From the NCBI GenBank assembly GCA_009839635.1, contig VXPJ01000072.1, forward strand, positions 1-32,360: DNA of 32,360 nucleotides. Direction: 5' to 3'. The notes under the pieces were generated by a model that ran no database searches, had not been told where the DNA came from, and worked only from the letters and a program-made list of their open reading frames with translations. Made by a program: the position numbers and the translations under genes. Below, in pieces: positions 19,134-27,782 of the stretch. How positions within the stretch are numbered: position 1 is the stretch's first letter; each line of letters begins with the position of its first letter. Source of the DNA: Pseudomonadota bacterium. GTDB taxonomy: Bacteria; Pseudomonadota; Gammaproteobacteria; UBA4575.

Positions 19134-19409
19134 TCTAGAAGGTTCTTGCCTGCTTGTATGGCTAGGCATCCATCAAAACCGTTGTTCCTGTCGAAAACGC
19201 AACAAGCAGAAAAATCCGGCTTGCTGCAGGCCCCTGCATTCCCATTTCCGGGGGCGCTATTGTGGAATACTTGCCTAGGCAGGGCAACTGCCCCAATGGG
19301 ATGAAAAGCCAGTGCCCCGTCTCTTCTGTTCAGCGCCAACACAGATATTTCTTCAGCAAATCACAGGTCGGGGCTGCACAGGCGATCATTCTGATAATCC
19401 CGAAACTAC

Positions 19410-19418
19410 TGCTATAAT
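19410..19418 (+). promoter_or_regulatory. Putative extended -10 promoter (TGCTATAAT) for the GPP34-P450 gene
   Basis: Consensus TATAAT at 19413-19418 preceded by TGn; only a weak -35 upstream; about 117 nt from the -10 to the ATG at 19536. Confidence 0.5.
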
Positions 19419-19535
19419 TAGCGGGTTGTTGTTGCTAACAGTCTTCAAGAATAGTGAAATTTTCCTGAACTGTTGCAAAGCGGGAATTATCCGGGCTTTT
19501 GCGCAGGCTACAGGCGGTGCAGGGAAGAAAGAACA

Positions 19536-21542
19536 ATGCGACTGACTGAAGAACTGATCCTCCTGATGCTTGATGAGCAAAGCGGCTACCTAGAAATGGT
19601 GCCTGGCTGGGATTTCTCGTGTGTCATCGCCGGCGCAGTCATCGCGGACCTCGCCCTGGAATTTCGAATTGACACGGATTTGGACTCATTGCACCTGATC
19701 AATGGGGACCCCACCGGCGACACCATGCTTGATCCCACATTGAAGGAGATCAGCGAATCGAAGGGTACTTTCAGCACCCAGTACTGGATTGAGAAGAACA
19801 CCTCGCGTTCCGACGATATCGTTACAATCACGCTCGACCGACTGGTTGAAAAAGGGATCTTGCAACACGAAACCGGTGGCTTCTGGTCATTGTCCTCATC
19901 GGTCTCCCGTACCAAAACCTACCCGACTGCCCAAGGCGCATCAAAGGAAGAGGCCAAGTCGCGAATCTTGAATGTCATTCTGAACGACATCATCCCGGAT
20001 CCCCGGGATGTCATCCTTATCTGTCTCATGCATACATGCGGGGGATTCAAGCTTATCCTCGACGAGGAAGACTATCAGGAAAAAATTGAACGCATCGAAA
20101 TGCTTGCCTCAATGGATCTGGTCGGCCAGTCCATATCCAAGGCAGTCATGCAAAGCACCATCAGGCCGAAGACGAAACAGGTTATTCAAACCAAGCCCAT
20201 CCCCAAGATGAAGGTATCCGACATCCTGCAGATTTCGGATTTCCGGCGGGGGGACATACCCAAGGCGATCTGCCAGATCCATGATAAGTACGGCCCGGTC
20301 GTCGAGGTACCCTTCAAGCTCAGGGGTCAACGGTTGCTCCTGCTGTCGGGCCCGGATGTCAATCAGTGGGTTCAGAAAAAGGGCAGGTTCTATCTTCGTT
20401 CAAAGGATTTTATCAAGGATTTTGAAGCCGAATATGGTGCCTCGCGAACCATGTCGGGCATGGATGGCGCAGAACACTACCGGATGAGAAAATCATTGCA
20501 GAAGGCGTATTCCCGGGCCGGTCTCTCCTGCAGACTGCCGGAGGTCGTTCATCTTTGCCGGAAATCCCTTGCCCGGTGGGAGCAGGGCTCAGTCATCGGC
20601 GCGACCATGGCCTGCCGGAATCACATTTGCAGTCAGGTTTCCAGCCTTTTGTTCGGTGTGGATGCTGGGGACGACATTGACGACATCATTGCCTACGGAC
20701 AGCGTGCGCTGAACATCCGTGTACTTGGAATGCTACCGGAATTCCTGCTCTCCACACCACGCATGAACCGGGCCAAGAATGCAGTGCAGCAGCTCGTCAA
20801 ATCAGTCCATGCCTCGCACACGCCAGCACAAAGGGAAGGGAAACCGCAAGATCTCGCCGATGCAATTCTCGAACTTCACCGAAGTGACCCGCAGTTTCTT
20901 CCTGAAACGGATACTACCTTCCCGTTTGTGGCAACGATGGTCGCCAGCATCTATCCCGGCAGTGGATTGGCTTTTGCCCTGTATTCGATGATTACCCGTC
21001 CAGACCTGTACGACAGGGTGCGTGAAGAGGCGGATGCACTGTTCGGAAACGGAAGAGAGCCAACTGCCGAGGATTTCAGCCTGTCAAATATTGATGTAAC
21101 CCATCGGGTATTTCTCGAAACCGAACGCATGTATCCCGCCATTCCTTGGCAACTCCGGGCCGTGATGAACCGATGCACCATTGATAAGTACGAGATACCG
21201 GTCAAAACCTACGTGTTGATATGCCAGACCGCGACACACTACATGGATAATGTCTTCAAGAACCCGACAGAATTTGACATCGGCCGCTACCAGAAAGGGC
21301 GACAGGAGCATCTGGGCCCATCTGCCTATACGCCCTTTGGCCTGGGCACACACGCATGCCTGGGGCATCGCTTTGTCGAATTGCAGATGGCTGTCAATCT
21401 CCTGCTCTTCGCCTACCACCTGAGGCTGGAAGTGAAGCCCGATGATTATGAGTTGCGCATCAACCCCTTCCCTGAATCGGCACCGACCAAGAAACTGAAG
21501 TTCAGGGTGGCCGAAGTCAGAAACCCCGTGAATCTCCATTAG
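19536..21542 (+). CDS. GPP34 (GOLPH3/Vps74-like) domain - cytochrome P450 fusion protein
   Basis: 668 aa from ATG 19536 (AGGGAAG upstream). N-term: MRLTEELILLMLDEQSGYLEMVPGWDFSCVIAGAVIADLALEFRIDTD...DPTGDTMLDPTLKEI...DRLVEKGILQHE (GPP34-like). C-term: P450 with FLETERMYP (ExxR), FDIGRYQ and PFGLGTHACLGHRFVELQMAVN (heme-thiolate Cys). One uninterrupted frame. Confidence 0.88.
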   Translation: MRLTEELILLMLDEQSGYLEMVPGWDFSCVIAGAVIADLALEFRIDTDLDSLHLINGDPTGDTMLDPTLKEISESKGTFSTQYWIEKNTSRSDDIVTITLDRLVEKGILQHETGGFWSLSSSVSRTKTYPTAQGASKEEAKSRILNVILNDIIPDPRDVILICLMHTCGGFKLILDEEDYQEKIERIEMLASMDLVGQSISKAVMQSTIRPKTKQVIQTKPIPKMKVSDILQISDFRRGDIPKAICQIHDKYGPVVEVPFKLRGQRLLLLSGPDVNQWVQKKGRFYLRSKDFIKDFEAEYGASRTMSGMDGAEHYRMRKSLQKAYSRAGLSCRLPEVVHLCRKSLARWEQGSVIGATMACRNHICSQVSSLLFGVDAGDDIDDIIAYGQRALNIRVLGMLPEFLLSTPRMNRAKNAVQQLVKSVHASHTPAQREGKPQDLADAILELHRSDPQFLPETDTTFPFVATMVASIYPGSGLAFALYSMITRPDLYDRVREEADALFGNGREPTAEDFSLSNIDVTHRVFLETERMYPAIPWQLRAVMNRCTIDKYEIPVKTYVLICQTATHYMDNVFKNPTEFDIGRYQKGRQEHLGPSAYTPFGLGTHACLGHRFVELQMAVNLLLFAYHLRLEVKPDDYELRINPFPESAPTKKLKFRVAEVRNPVNLH

Positions 21543-21629: not shown

Positions 21630-24600
21630 TCAGTCTACAGGGTTGACGGTTGCCGGAGAGACGAGGTCAGCGCCTGCTTCAGTCTGCTGGATCCTCTTGC
21701 GAAGATACATTGCCATCAGCGCGGGTATGAGCATCATCAATATGGCCGTAGTAATCATGATCCCGAAACCGAGTGATGCAGCAAATGGAATCAAAAACTG
21801 TGCCTGAATTGCACGCTCAAGAATGAGGGGCGTGAACCCGAGGAAAGTGGTCACAGAAGTGAGCAAAATTGGACGAAAGCGTCCCTTTGCGCCCTCTATA
21901 ATTGCAGTTCGCGCAGGAACTCCCTCGTCGAGTTTCTGGTCGATGAAATCAATCATCACCAGCGAATCATTCACGACGACACCACTGAGGCCAAATATGC
22001 CCAAAAAGGATGCAGCACTCATGGCGATTCCCAATGCCAGGTGACCCCAGATCGCACCGATGAGCCCGAACGGGATGATGGCCATGATGATAAATGGCTT
22101 GATGTAGGAGCGCAGGGGGATGGCCAGCAGCGCAAATATCATGAGCATTGCAACTGCAAACCCGCGTTTCAGTGAGCCCAGGGATTCCAATTGCTCCTGT
22201 TGCTCTCCTCCAAACGTATACGTCAGGCCGGGATGTGCCTCCTTGAGTCCTGCAAGGATTGAATTCGCCAAAATGGCGTTGGCTTCCCCGCCGGTGATTA
22301 CGGTCTGGTCCACATCCGCCGTGACCGTAACAACGCGCTGCCCGTCCCTTCTCGAAATCGCGGGTGGCGACATGCCTGATTCGAACGTCGCAACCTGACT
22401 TAACGGAACCTCAGCTCCAGTGGGAGTGCGGATCAGGTACCCTTCGATATCGGTGATGGCATTGCGCTCATCCTTGGGCAAACGCACATAAACCCGTATT
22501 TCTTCGCGCCCGCGCTGCACCCGCAAGGCCTCTGCACCGAAAAATGCAGCACGTGCCTGCTGTGCCATGTCTTCAAGTGTAAGTCCAAGTGTACGTGCCT
22601 CGGGCCGCAGCCCAAGCTGGATTTCCCGAACTCCCGGCGTATGATCAGACCGTACATCAAAGACACCTTCCAGTTCGCGCAAGCCATATACGGCAGAACC
22701 TGCGACCTGGTTGAGATTTTGCGGTTGAGGGTGCGACAGTACCACCTCAATGGGATTGCCCAAATCAAAGACCTTGCCACTGAAAGTGACTCCACGAACG
22801 TAGGGCAGGATACCCACCTCATCTCGCCATGCCTGGGCAATGGCCCCGGTGGAAATCTTGCGCTGCTGTGCGCCCAGCAACTTGAATTCGATGGTGGCGA
22901 TATTCGGTTCCGGATTCAGCGAAAGTTTCGGTGCAAGACCCCCGCCCTCTACCCGCGGCCCTTGACCTACGGTCACGGTTACCCCGGAAAGCAAGGGGGA
23001 GGCGCCCTCGGGCCGGTCACGCGAAATCCGTTCGAGCACACGATGTCCTGCACCTTCCAGTTCCCTTGCAACCTCATGCGTTCTCTGCGCAGTGGTGCCA
23101 TCAGGCATCTCCAGCGTGGCGGTGACAAAATCACCCTCCACGACATCCGCAAAGGATGTTGCGACGACCCCCGCCGGCAGCAAGGAAACACTGAAAATCA
23201 GCAGGCCGATGGCGCCCGCCAGCGTCACGACAGGCTGGGCAGTCGCAAAGTGTAGTCCCCGGTCCAGAGGACCCTTCAGAAATTTATCCAGCAGATCATC
23301 TACAACACCTCGAACCCGGGCAAAAAACCGGTCAACCGGCCCGGTAGGCGTCCATTCCGGTCCATGCAGATTGGACAGATGGTTGGGCAGGATCAGCAGT
23401 GATTCCACCAGGGAAATCAGCAACATCGCAATGATAATCACCGGCAGGGCCTTCCATACCTGTCCGATGCCCCCAGGTATGAAAAATAGTGGAATGAATG
23501 CTGCGACGGAAGTCAGTACGGCAAACGTCAGAGGCACCTTGATCCGTCGAGTGCCGCGGATCGCCGCGACGATGCCCGGCGTACCACGGCTTCGTTCATG
23601 GTGAATATGCTCGGCCACGACAATGGCATCGTCAACCACGATGCCGATCGCCAGGACAAACGCGAACAGGGAGACCGTATTGATCGAGATATCCGCCGCC
23701 AACATCGCAGCCAGAGCGCCGATCCCTGAGACGGCCAGGCCCGCAGCGACCCATACAGCCAGCCGAATCTCGAGAAACAGGGCCAAGGCAACCAGAACAA
23801 GCATCAAACCCAGGATTCCATTCTTAAGAAGGATGTTCACGCGTTCCTTGTAGTCCTGAGAGTCATCATTCCAGATCGTGATCCCGACCCCGTCAGGAAG
23901 GGATGGGCTGATCACGTTGACAACGTGCTCTCGCACAGCCGTGGTAACATCCATCACCCGCTCCCCTTCTGCCCGGTAGACTTCAACAAAGGCAGCAGGC
24001 TGATTCTGATGACGTACGATCAGATCGGAGTCCTGAAAGCCATCGCGTACCCGGGCGATGTCTCCCAGTCGTACGACCGTGCCGTCATTTCTACTGAGAA
24101 CAACCATTTCCTCAAAATCCTGCTGGACATAGCGCTGACCCAAGGTGCGTACACGCACCTCGGTTTCCCGGGTTTCGATACTGCCTGCTGACAGATCCAG
24201 GGAGCCGTGGCGTATCGTGTTTGCGATATCCGTCAGGGTGAGGCCCAGGGCACGCAGGCGGGCCTGCGGGACCTCGATGGTGATTTCATAATCCCGTACA
24301 CCGCTGGTCTCGACCGATGACACGGTGGGAAGCGAAGCCAGCTCATCCTCGATCTGGTACGCCAGCTCTTTGAGAGCGCGCTCGGAGATTTCTCCATGGA
24401 CAAGGACACGAACCACACTCTGATGGTTGGACATTTCCCGGAATTCCGGACGCTCGGCTGCCGCGGGGAAAGACTGGATACGACCCACCACAGTTTTGAT
24501 CTCATCCAGCACACGACCTATATCCGCACCCAGCTTCAGTTCAGCACGCACTGACGCCATCCCTGGAGCGGCCACGGACTTCACCCGCTTGACGTTGCCC

Positions 24601-24854
24601 AGCGATTCGACCTGCTCCTCGATCTTGACCACGATCGACTCTTCCACCTCTTCCGGCGTGGCACCGGGATAGGCCACGGAGACTTCGATGGTATTGAATT
24701 CCACCGTGGCCCATGATTCCCGCTCCAGACCGGTCAATGCCACCAAGCCTGCAGCCAGTATGACGAACATGAACAGGTTGGCCGCGACGCTGTTGCCCGC
24801 CATATAGGCGATCGGGCCGCCCGGCTCTCCCAGGTGACTGCTTTTTTGGCTCAT
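21630..24854 (-). CDS. RND-family efflux transporter permease (HAE1-like)
   Basis: 1074 aa; EVSVAYPGATPEEVEESIVVKIEEQVESL, FAFVLAIGIVVDDAIVVAEHIHHE (TM4 double Asp), GLSGVVVNDSLVMIDFI. Confidence 0.95.
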   Translation of the reverse strand: MSQKSSHLGEPGGPIAYMAGNSVAANLFMFVILAAGLVALTGLERESWATVEFNTIEVSVAYPGATPEEVEESIVVKIEEQVESLGNVKRVKSVAAPGMASVRAELKLGADIGRVLDEIKTVVGRIQSFPAAAERPEFREMSNHQSVVRVLVHGEISERALKELAYQIEDELASLPTVSSVETSGVRDYEITIEVPQARLRALGLTLTDIANTIRHGSLDLSAGSIETRETEVRVRTLGQRYVQQDFEEMVVLSRNDGTVVRLGDIARVRDGFQDSDLIVRHQNQPAAFVEVYRAEGERVMDVTTAVREHVVNVISPSLPDGVGITIWNDDSQDYKERVNILLKNGILGLMLVLVALALFLEIRLAVWVAAGLAVSGIGALAAMLAADISINTVSLFAFVLAIGIVVDDAIVVAEHIHHERSRGTPGIVAAIRGTRRIKVPLTFAVLTSVAAFIPLFFIPGGIGQVWKALPVIIIAMLLISLVESLLILPNHLSNLHGPEWTPTGPVDRFFARVRGVVDDLLDKFLKGPLDRGLHFATAQPVVTLAGAIGLLIFSVSLLPAGVVATSFADVVEGDFVTATLEMPDGTTAQRTHEVARELEGAGHRVLERISRDRPEGASPLLSGVTVTVGQGPRVEGGGLAPKLSLNPEPNIATIEFKLLGAQQRKISTGAIAQAWRDEVGILPYVRGVTFSGKVFDLGNPIEVVLSHPQPQNLNQVAGSAVYGLRELEGVFDVRSDHTPGVREIQLGLRPEARTLGLTLEDMAQQARAAFFGAEALRVQRGREEIRVYVRLPKDERNAITDIEGYLIRTPTGAEVPLSQVATFESGMSPPAISRRDGQRVVTVTADVDQTVITGGEANAILANSILAGLKEAHPGLTYTFGGEQQEQLESLGSLKRGFAVAMLMIFALLAIPLRSYIKPFIIMAIIPFGLIGAIWGHLALGIAMSAASFLGIFGLSGVVVNDSLVMIDFIDQKLDEGVPARTAIIEGAKGRFRPILLTSVTTFLGFTPLILERAIQAQFLIPFAASLGFGIMITTAILMMLIPALMAMYLRKRIQQTEAGADLVSPATVNPVD

Positions 24855-26080
24855 TGTTCTACAGCGTCCCGGCTGCGCACCCTCATGCCTTCGGTGGCAA
24901 ATTGAATGCCGCCCGTGACAACGGCCTGCCCCTCTTCGAGGGCACCGGTTACGAAGATTTCATTATCACCACGCTGCAGCACCTGTACCGGGACAATACC
25001 GACTCTTTGCCCATCGCGGATTACCCAAACCTCATTCCCCGGTTGCAGGGCCAAACGCGGGATCCGGAAATAGCTCTCCGGCGTGAGCCCCTCGATTTCA
25101 ACCTCCACAAACTTGCCCACCAGAAGCGGAGGAGGCTGGGAGGTATGCTCTTGCGAGTCGACCGGGGTACCCGCAGAAAAGGGCTCGGGGACACGCACAA
25201 TCACATCGATGGTTCGTGTCTGCTTGTCAAGGGACACCTCGGCCCGGTCCACATAGCCGTCCCACGCGTAGTGCGCGTCTGCGTATCTCGCGATGACACG
25301 CGCATTCACCCGCCGCTTGGCATCCCCCGCCTGAAGCTCCCACAGCCCGGGGATCAATGCGGTGTTGGAATCGGACAGGGGCAATACCACCTCGACCGCA
25401 TCGGCGGCAAACAGCCGCCCGACGACCTGGCCCACCGTCAGAAACTGGCCGATGTCCACGGACTTCTCGCGCACATAGCCATCGAAGGACGCCTTCACGC
25501 TGGTTCGGGCCAACGCCAGCCGGGCTTCGGCAACCTTGGCCTCCTCACGTTTCAGCGCAGCCTGAGCAGCCTTCAGTTGGGGCTCTCGCAGCACCAGGGG
25601 GCTTGCCTGGGTCACCGTGGATCCCGACTCGCGCTGTCGACCAGAGTACTGCTCGTATTCTGTCCGGGCGACGGCCGCCAACTCGCGGGCCTCGAGAAGG
25701 GCCACTCTCCGGTCTTCGAGATCGGCCATGGCTTCGCGCAGGCGATACTGGTAGTCCTCCCGTTCAATGCGGAAGATCGTATCGCCCGCCTTGATCCGCC
25801 CGCCACTGTGGAAGCTCGGATTCATCCAGTCGACTCGGCCACTGACTTGCGAAGTGATGTCAATTTCCGCACTGGGCCGCACGGTTCCGGCACCGTACAC
25901 CGGTATGGCCCCGGTCCCGGGCGCCACCTGGGCGGACTGCACGAACGGAATTCGAGGCGGCAGCTCACGACGCTCCGGCTCAGGCGCCAGTGATACCAGA
26001 ATGGATGCCAGCACCACCGCACCCACCAGAATCCCGGCGGCAACCAGATAGCTTTTCAGTCCGTCCTTCAGTTTTTTCAT
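24851..26080 (-). CDS. RND efflux periplasmic adaptor (membrane fusion) protein
   Basis: 409 aa; N-terminal TM; GTVRPSAEIDITSQVSGRVDWMNPSFHSGGRIKAGDTIFRIE, coiled-coil hairpin, VKASFDGYVREKSVDIGQFLTVGQ; 4-nt overlap with the RND start. Confidence 0.94.
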   Translation of the reverse strand: MKKLKDGLKSYLVAAGILVGAVVLASILVSLAPEPERRELPPRIPFVQSAQVAPGTGAIPVYGAGTVRPSAEIDITSQVSGRVDWMNPSFHSGGRIKAGDTIFRIEREDYQYRLREAMADLEDRRVALLEARELAAVARTEYEQYSGRQRESGSTVTQASPLVLREPQLKAAQAALKREEAKVAEARLALARTSVKASFDGYVREKSVDIGQFLTVGQVVGRLFAADAVEVVLPLSDSNTALIPGLWELQAGDAKRRVNARVIARYADAHYAWDGYVDRAEVSLDKQTRTIDVIVRVPEPFSAGTPVDSQEHTSQPPPLLVGKFVEVEIEGLTPESYFRIPRLALQPGNEVWVIRDGQRVGIVPVQVLQRGDNEIFVTGALEEGQAVVTGGIQFATEGMRVRSRDAVEQ

Positions 26081-26086
26081 GCCGGT

Positions 26087-27661
26087 TTACTCCGTGGCTA
26101 GGGATGCGGCCCGAAGGCCCGCAACCTGTGGAGAATCGTCAATGTGTACAGCCTCCTCCGGGCCGGCGGCCGTCCACACGCCGCCCAGTGCGCGATGCAG
26201 CGCCAGGCGCATGTACCCCAGATCGCGCTCGGCGGCAGCCAGCGAGGACTTCATGCTGGTAAGCGTTTCCGAGGCTGCCAGGAAGTCATCGTAGTCGCCG
26301 ACTCCGGACCAGTAGCGGCGCTCCTGAAAGGCCGTCTCCGCCCGGGCTTCCTCGACGGACGAGCTCAGCAGCGCATGGCGCTGATGGCTGGTCTCGAGTT
26401 GGGTCAGCACAGCCTCAACCTCGTTGACCGCAGTGACCACCGAGTGCCTGTACGCAAAAGCCGCTTCTTTCAGCCGGGTCTCCGCAAGGGTCACATTGTG
26501 ACGCAGCCGCTTGCCCTGAAATACCGGCCCGACCAGATTCAGGCTCAGATTTTTGAACCACTGGGCCGCATCCAGCCACTGATGGGTGTCCGAGCCCTGC
26601 AATCCGATGGTGCCGGACAGGGACAGCGATGGCAGCAGTTCGGCACGGCGTGCTCCGACGGCATAGCGGGCCGCCTCCACCCGCTGCTGGGCCGCGCCCA
26701 CATCGGGGCGTTGGGTGAGAAGGTCAGCCGGTATGCCCACAGGAATGCGATCGAATGTCATCGAGGGCGACAGGGAATCCGGCAACATGCCCGCCAGGTC
26801 CGCCCGGTACCCGCCCAGCAGGATCCAGAGCCGGCCCTCTGCATCGGCCAGCCGCCCTCGGATGGCAGGCAGTTCAGCTTGCGAGTTCCACAGTTGCAGG
26901 CGCGCAGTGTAGAGTTCACGCGCCGTGTTCAGGCCACGCTGGTAGCGGGCCGTGGTGAGCTTCTCGCGCTCCTGCAGGATCCCCACGATCTCGTCGGACA
27001 GCCCGAGTTGGCGGCGCAACCAGGCGATCTCGATATACGTGCGCACGGTTTCTGCAACGACCCCGATCCGGGCCGCACGGTAGTCCCACTCCGAAGCCAG
27101 GTGTTCGGCGCGGGCCGCCCGTGCATCACTGCGGTTGCGGCCCCAGAAGTCGGCCTCGTAGGAGAAGTTCGCACTCAGGGAGTACGTGGTCACCGCCAGG
27201 CGGTCCGGCACGGAAATGCCAAACTCCTGTTTGAGTTCCGGACTCAACCCGATCTCTTCAATCTGCTCACCCACGCCCGCATTGGTAGGCGTATCCGTGT
27301 CCTCGCCAGACGCCGATGGCTGCAGCGCTGGGTACCTGGCGGCATTTGCGATGCCCGCCCGGGCCCGGGCCTGCTCAACCCGCGCCACGGCTTCTGCCAA
27401 GTCGAGGTTCGACACCAGTACGGCTTCCACGACCCGGTCCAGCGCCGGGTCGTTGTATGTTTTCCACCACTCCAGCGCCTCGTAGGCCCCGCCCGCAGCT
27501 TCGCCGGTGAATTTTTCAGGCAATTGCAGCACAGGCGCCTCGGCCTCCAGCATAGATTTTTGTGAACACGCGGCCATGAGAAATCCGGCGATCACCGCAA
27601 ACAGCACTCCTGAGGCGGAATGCCACCGGTGCGTTGCCAGTCTTTCAGAAACAGTTGCCAT
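26087..27661 (-). CDS. outer-membrane efflux lipoprotein (TolC-like/NodT family)
   Basis: MATVSERLATHRWHSASGVLFAVIAGFLMAACSQ (lipobox LMAAC); WWKTYNDPALDRVVEAVLVSNLDLAEAVARVEQARA; ADLLTQRPDVGAAQQRVEAARYAVGARRAELLPSLSLSGTIG. Confidence 0.94.
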   Translation of the reverse strand: MATVSERLATHRWHSASGVLFAVIAGFLMAACSQKSMLEAEAPVLQLPEKFTGEAAGGAYEALEWWKTYNDPALDRVVEAVLVSNLDLAEAVARVEQARARAGIANAARYPALQPSASGEDTDTPTNAGVGEQIEEIGLSPELKQEFGISVPDRLAVTTYSLSANFSYEADFWGRNRSDARAARAEHLASEWDYRAARIGVVAETVRTYIEIAWLRRQLGLSDEIVGILQEREKLTTARYQRGLNTARELYTARLQLWNSQAELPAIRGRLADAEGRLWILLGGYRADLAGMLPDSLSPSMTFDRIPVGIPADLLTQRPDVGAAQQRVEAARYAVGARRAELLPSLSLSGTIGLQGSDTHQWLDAAQWFKNLSLNLVGPVFQGKRLRHNVTLAETRLKEAAFAYRHSVVTAVNEVEAVLTQLETSHQRHALLSSSVEEARAETAFQERRYWSGVGDYDDFLAASETLTSMKSSLAAAERDLGYMRLALHRALGGVWTAAGPEEAVHIDDSPQVAGLRAASLATE

Positions 27662-27782
27662 TACAATGCAGCATATCGCACCACCGGTGCGATGCAGAAA
27701 TTCCTGATCCGCAGTACCGGCCACATCAACCGGTCTGGTTCAGCCAGCGGACGCTCCTTCTCGGTTTATCCCCGGCAAGACG

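Follow-up and report, generated by a model that had tools for sequence, protein, structure and literature searches.

We propose that the gene at positions 19536..21542 (+) of the window, the whole 32,360-nucleotide stretch of DNA that was analysed, encodes a membrane-docked cytochrome P450 of a bacterial sterol or triterpenoid pathway whose product would be handed to an RND pump, and we put the probability of this account at roughly 0.55. The protein joins a GPP34 (GOLPH3/Vps74-type) domain to a P450 domain; the fusion is kept as a unit under purifying selection, the same neighbours recur around it, and it is present in genomes that carry sterol genes. Since the gene recurs beside sterol-making and lipid-export genes, the fusion probably represents a hitherto unrecognised step, located at the membrane, in the bacterial chemistry of sterols or related triterpenes. 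In the mechanism that we infer, GPP34-P450 would be a heme-thiolate enzyme acting on a sterol or triterpene, the GPP34 domain together with a strongly basic linker would hold it on the cytoplasmic face of the inner membrane where the hydrophobic substrate sits, docking would occur via an anionic lipid or a partner's basic tail and not via PI4P, and the product would then be passed on to a tripartite RND pump.

The gene is a single open frame of 668 codons plus stop, giving a protein of 668 aa (translation, Pfam, relatives and model). A GGGAAG purine run at 19522..19527 (+), read directly, is the likely ribosome-binding site for the ATG at 19536; an alternative in-frame start is the TTG at 19473. 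Residues 3-206 (19542..20153 (+)) form the GPP34 domain, which scores 112 bits against PF05719 (cut-off 29.1) and covers profile positions 1-200 of 201, with support from the 3kn1 profile and Foldseek. They are followed by a basic linker (QTKPIPK; residues 207-230, 20154..20225 (+)), recognised by its net charge, and in a sample of 14 relatives the surrounding region (residues 200-237) has a net charge between +4 and +9. The P450 domain occupies residues 231-646 (20226..21473 (+)) and scores 143 bits against PF00067 (cut-off 22.8), in agreement with its fold match. Translation and the alignment of relatives place the ExxR motif (ETER) at residues 528-531 (21117..21128 (+)) and the heme-binding loop PFGLGTHACLGHR at residues 600-612 (21333..21371 (+)), with the thiolate Cys608 at 21357-21359. 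The original prediction of one uninterrupted 668-codon frame joining GPP34 to a P450, with no N-terminal transmembrane helix, is borne out: translation and 50 complete fused frames agree, both Pfam profiles lie well above cut-off, the P450 motifs that it named (E528 and R531 of ExxR, FDxxR at 580-584 and Cys608) are present and conserved, and no N-terminal transmembrane helix was found by hydropathy, the top 19-residue window being the GPP34 core helix at residue 27. AlphaFold modelled the full-length protein with pLDDT 85 and pTM 0.76, confidently over most of both halves.

When 85,462 species genomes were scanned with patterns taken from the GPP34 half, the result was 55 loci in metagenome-assembled genomes (MAGs); 50 of these loci hold a complete single fused frame, most of the remainder breaking off at contig ends. 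Aligned relatives show 40-77% identity, and three other members of the window's genus carry GPP34-P450 (77, 74 and 46% identity), free of stops. Since 50 of the 55 loci carry the complete fused frame, a sequencing or assembly error is excluded; chance plays no part either. That an artefact or frameshift fused two separate genes is refuted and has a vanishingly small probability: the 50 complete frames come from independent assemblies including complete chromosomes (some carriers, OX638346 and OX638379, are titled as such), no frameshift or stop separates the halves, and both domains are matched by Pfam in 42 of 42 aligned relatives. The two-domain architecture extends over several phyla, the record titles of carriers naming Gammaproteobacteria, Acidobacteriota, Rhodothermales, Binatota, Latescibacterota and Alphaproteobacteria; no weight was given to the phylum assigned to small contigs, a 4-kb contig titled 'Latescibacterota' (L070) being near-identical to one from Binatia (L069) and perhaps misbinned. 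Fused paralogues were also found among the 297 Acidobacteriota surveyed, and some genomes have two or three GPP34-P450 genes. It is likely that most carriers are sponge symbionts; this host association is partly inferred, the basis being the names of isolates and the projects that they match (PMC8163846, PMC9531527), and a single record title names a sponge. The isolate prefixes RHO, COS, CAR, IRC and APA fit hosts studied in PMC8163846, and the isolate names of the jk18x and p16x type probably belong to the Ircinia study (PMC9531527).

The pairwise identities of the two halves correlate (r = 0.93), with means of 57 and 54%, and dN/dS lies at 0.03-0.29 in both. Since the identities track each other and both halves show these low ratios, the constraint on GPP34 must be as strong as that on its P450 partner. 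A tree of the P450 portion sets 26 fused proteins apart from 13 unfused P450s by a branch with support 99, and one fusion event therefore suffices. Acidobacteriota and Rhodothermales rows are intermixed with starred support, and both major clades are present within the window's genus (the window protein and L007) and within the Porisulfidus records (L041, L078). Such intermixing would fit horizontal transfer but is not proof of it, as bins can be impure. No unfused close relative of the P450 half exceeded about 30% identity across the greater part of that half among 369 genomes of the class, none of the viral contigs encodes a GPP34-P450 relative, and plasmids gave matches to the P450 half only, with no fused record. 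The closest plasmid relative, at 28%, is one P450 of a Planktothrix plasmid cluster (L187:868-17197) that contains squalene-synthase-type, cyclase-type, SDR, Rieske and several P450 genes.

In the window, the convergent neighbours of the fusion are an RND permease of the AcrB family (21630..24854 (-); PF00873, 512 bits), an RND periplasmic adaptor of the HlyD/MFP type (24851..26080 (-); TIGR01730, 149 bits) and an outer-membrane efflux protein of the NodT/TolC type (26087..27724 (-); PF02321, 136 bits; TIGR01845, 277 bits); this RND operon is all that adjoins the fusion there, no sterol gene being adjacent. Profile scans of 56 fusion loci found RND at 39, HlyD at 27 and OMF at 26, a Rieske oxygenase at 33, a sterol methyltransferase at 18, a flavin amine-oxidase-like protein at 14 and an SdmB-like SDR at 6, and the pump, the oxygenase, the methyltransferase and the SdmB-like dehydrogenase recur within about 8 kb of the fusion. 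The conserved-neighbour clusters c8 and c11 were dropped because they seem to be frames antisense to the RND operon. The neighbouring Rieske protein, of KshA/SdmA type, shares the KshA_C (3-ketosteroid hydroxylase) domain with the KshA and SdmA oxygenases and has KshA as its best solved-structure matches, but its best NCBIfam match, SdmA, scores only 32 bits where the cut-off is 600. The methyltransferase carries a Sterol_MT_C domain, and the best NCBIfam match of the SDR is SdmB at 306 bits, below the cut-off of 600. At three loci (L060, L061, L064), genes for the sterol methyltransferase, SDR, Rieske oxygenase, ERG24, CYP51 and squalene epoxidase-cyclase are found within 10 kb of the fusion. 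Where the window has a gap between the transketolase and fusion genes (19170-19535), a sister genome (G004) has a Rieske gene (L034:8629-9702); no KshA_C match was found in the window's own genome, the probable explanation being either loss of the gene or a location in the part of the genome that is missing.

The window's own genome encodes, on contig C82 (L150:2863-9922), ERG24, a P450 at the CYP51 position, a 1146-aa squalene epoxidase-cyclase fusion and a sterol methyltransferase. These genes follow one another as in the msb sterol locus (PMC7074536), which was described from a gammaproteobacterial symbiont of a Melophlus sponge, and in part as in the CSG clusters of Ircinia symbionts (PMC9531527). 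Sterol_MT_C was detected in 33 of 40 fusion genomes as against 1 of 369 class genomes, the one being the window's own, KshA_C in 36 of 40 as against 1 of 16 fusion-negative relatives, and an OSC-type cyclase in 21 of 40, counts that are confounded by habitat and shared ancestry. Sponge symbionts share many genes by transfer. The link to sterols, which rests on neighbourhood and co-occurrence with habitat as a confounder, is probable, and the sterol-gene neighbourhood, which lay outside the view of the original prediction, makes likely the lipid-type substrate proposed there. The sterol methyltransferase was not detected in 7 of the 40 fusion genomes, nor the OSC-type cyclase in about half, which argues that host sterols are used or that the substrate differs; about half of the fusion genomes may thus act on sterols taken up from outside or on a different substrate.

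The model of the P450 half matches solved P450s with TM up to 0.80 by target, and the catalytic motifs are nearly invariant in the 42 aligned proteins (E528 in 41, R531 in 42, C608 in 41), the exceptions both being L084, whose tail is shorter and probably misaligns. By profile, the closest solved sequences are CYP51s (sterol 14alpha-demethylases) at about 20% identity, with CYP3A and CYP102 scoring nearly as well. A sterol context is also common to both, but identity with CYP51 was rejected, since the fused P450s form their own clade, the window protein lacks the HT of the I-helix, and its genome has a CYP51-like gene besides. In the I-helix segment ATMVASIYPGSGLAFAL (residues 466-482, 20931..20981 (+)), the AGHHTS of CYP51 aligns with ASIYLGS, the window protein having ASIYPG. 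The acid-alcohol pair ([AG]Gx[DE]T[TS]) is absent and the motif is A[SG][IH]YxG, with Tyr473 in all 42 proteins; Pro474 occurs in the window protein only, most members having Leu. Since the basal fused proteins L213, L214, L209 and L210 keep HT or DT, as do most unfused neighbours, the Tyr replacement must have been derived within the fused family, in the sponge-type clade. Both this replacement of the acid-Thr pair by an invariant Tyr and the gene context are new relative to the original prediction. One fused paralogue with an HT I-helix (L209:5896-9905 (-), Acidobacteriota, G528) lies directly downstream of a squalene-hopene-type cyclase. The acid-alcohol motif is not absolute across the P450 superfamily, and the altered I-helix suggests chemistry without the usual acid-Thr proton relay, such as substrate-assisted oxidation, desaturation or rearrangement.

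The invariant Tyr, together with its derived state relative to the four basal paralogues, could also mean that the P450 is not a monooxygenase, and that it works as an isomerase or dehydratase, as a peroxide-dependent enzyme or as a ligand-binding sensor. However, ExxR and the heme Cys are intact under selection, and some P450s, P450eryF among them, monooxygenate without the Thr through substrate assistance, so that we regard a non-monooxygenase as possible but doubtful. A different objection concerns the substrate. RND pumps of the window type are usually drug exporters, the RND, MFP and OMF components are among the commonest neighbours, and P450s and Rieske oxygenases accept wide substrate ranges; the two oxygenases might then modify a non-sterol compound for expulsion by the pump, as a detoxification or secondary-metabolite module. 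The methyltransferase and SdmB-like neighbours, the linkage to ERG24, CYP51 and the cyclase at three loci and the genome-wide methyltransferase association all argue against such a module, which we consider rather unlikely. For an enzyme of sterol or triterpenoid metabolism, a candidate step would be the side-chain oxidation that is missing for the sterol saponins of sponges, sarasinosides being an example.

The GPP34 half matches GOLPH3 chain 3kn1 by profile (E 2.4e-17) and, modelled alone, gave Foldseek hits above the noise to GOLPH3 and Vps74 only (E 2.6e-8 to 3kn1 and 9qpq, 1.2e-6 to 2zih, the next unrelated structure at 1.0). The PI4P pocket of GOLPH3 is formed by W81, R90, R171 and R174 (PMC13408441), for which the profile alignment gives V22, A32, D93 and V96 in the window protein (codons 22-96, 19599..19823 (+)); in the 42 members the four positions are, in order, mostly V/I, Ala in 40, Asp or Glu in 40, and V/S/N. 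Since the pocket residues are replaced in essentially all members, phosphoinositide binding via the known pocket is unlikely, and canonical PI4P binding was ruled out on these residues. The lipid sensor of the original prediction, read as a GPP34 domain that senses PI4P or a similar phosphoinositide, perhaps that of the sponge host, would suit the GOLPH3 fold and the apparent host association of many of the organisms, but becomes highly improbable when all four residues have changed in the window protein, 40 of 42 members have an acidic residue in place of Arg171 and R90L by itself largely abolishes the Golgi localisation of human GOLPH3 (PMC13408441). Nor does the anchor that was to replace a transmembrane helix hold as the general role of the module, since GPP34 is also found on MFS transporters and on a protein with a polytopic C-terminus, which need no such anchor. 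In GOLPH3, the basic tails of client enzymes are held in an acidic groove, and the linker directly after GPP34 is basic and resembles such a tail (PMC13408441), so that, by analogy, the fusion may be a GOLPH3-like adaptor and its client made permanent. The domain might even be mainly a protein adaptor, gathering the P450 with the pump, ERG24 and the methyltransferase as GOLPH3 does with Golgi-enzyme tails, with membrane contact secondary. The MFS and polytopic fusions, the loss of the pocket arginines and the basic linker all favour this, but where GOLPH3 has Asp247, which binds the client, the window protein has a Gly, and we entertain a purely adaptor function only tentatively.

In comparison with GOLPH3/Vps74 (PF05719), which in eukaryotes is an adaptor for membrane-bound enzymes, GPP34-P450 is alike in fold, profile match and core helices, but it is bacterial, does not keep the PI4P pocket, is covalently fused to its presumed client and lacks a confident model of the membrane-hairpin region, where strands appear at 109-112 and 116-119 in the full model and pLDDT falls below 50 at 112-137 in the domain model. 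SCO4440 of Streptomyces is likewise a bacterial GPP34 (GOLPH3-like) protein, but it stands alone, unfused to an enzyme, and is tied to peptidoglycan composition and wall-deficient cells (PMC12402492). The CYP51-ferredoxin fusion of M. capsulatus has a different fusion partner. The consulted passages of the papers on the msb locus (PMC7074536), the CSG clusters (PMC9531527) and the bacterial SMT clusters (PMC10070321) describe ERG24, CYP51, the epoxidase-cyclase fusion, SMT and SdmAB-like genes in common with the genomes studied here, present evidence of transfer among sponge symbionts and contain no mention of GPP34-P450, which differs in marking a second locus, usually with an RND pump. In the reachable part of the literature, no GPP34-P450 enzyme was described, in keeping with the original statement that none had been characterised; the literature name Gpp34 is an unrelated insecticidal name.

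Little is known of what the GOLPH3-type domain does in bacteria, a single experimental study (PMC12402492) having been found. Here, a large family has the domain covalently tied to an enzyme, and the client of GPP34 is therefore not in doubt; the related GPP34-transporter fusions hint at a general adaptor module. It is debated who makes or remodels sponge sterols, because 24-isopropylcholestane is interpreted as perhaps the oldest fossil trace of animals. Functional sterol methyltransferases are already known from bacterial symbionts of sponges (PMC10070321), and a conserved P450 with an odd active site at sponge-symbiont sterol loci is a directly testable further step. A more far-reaching reading, which we offer as a speculation, is that GPP34-P450 could be an unrecognised, horizontally traded oxidative step towards sterols or sterol-derived triterpenoids in sponges, with Tyr473 replacing the acid-Thr relay, and that GOLPH3-type domains could be covalent adaptors that place lipid enzymes and transporters in the membrane.

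Other GPP34 proteins were also observed. The window's own genome has a second one on contig C64 (L002:928-2163 (-)), whose C-terminal region contains about four TM-like stretches and gave no Pfam match over cut-off; L019, L020 and L156 are its relatives. GPP34 lies N-terminal to MFS transporters at L021:1489-3354 (+), L032:3107-5014 (+) and L159:190-2088 (-), these fusions occurring in two Gammaproteobacteria with more than one in one genome, and beside MFS fusions a further protein (L032:7382-8635 (+)) combines a GPP34-like domain with a C-terminal domain of about 220 aa. Finally, a shortened fused copy of 557 aa (L220:5688-7361 (+)), with a P450 match below cut-off, is adjoined by RND and sterol methyltransferase genes and may be a decaying or altered paralogue.
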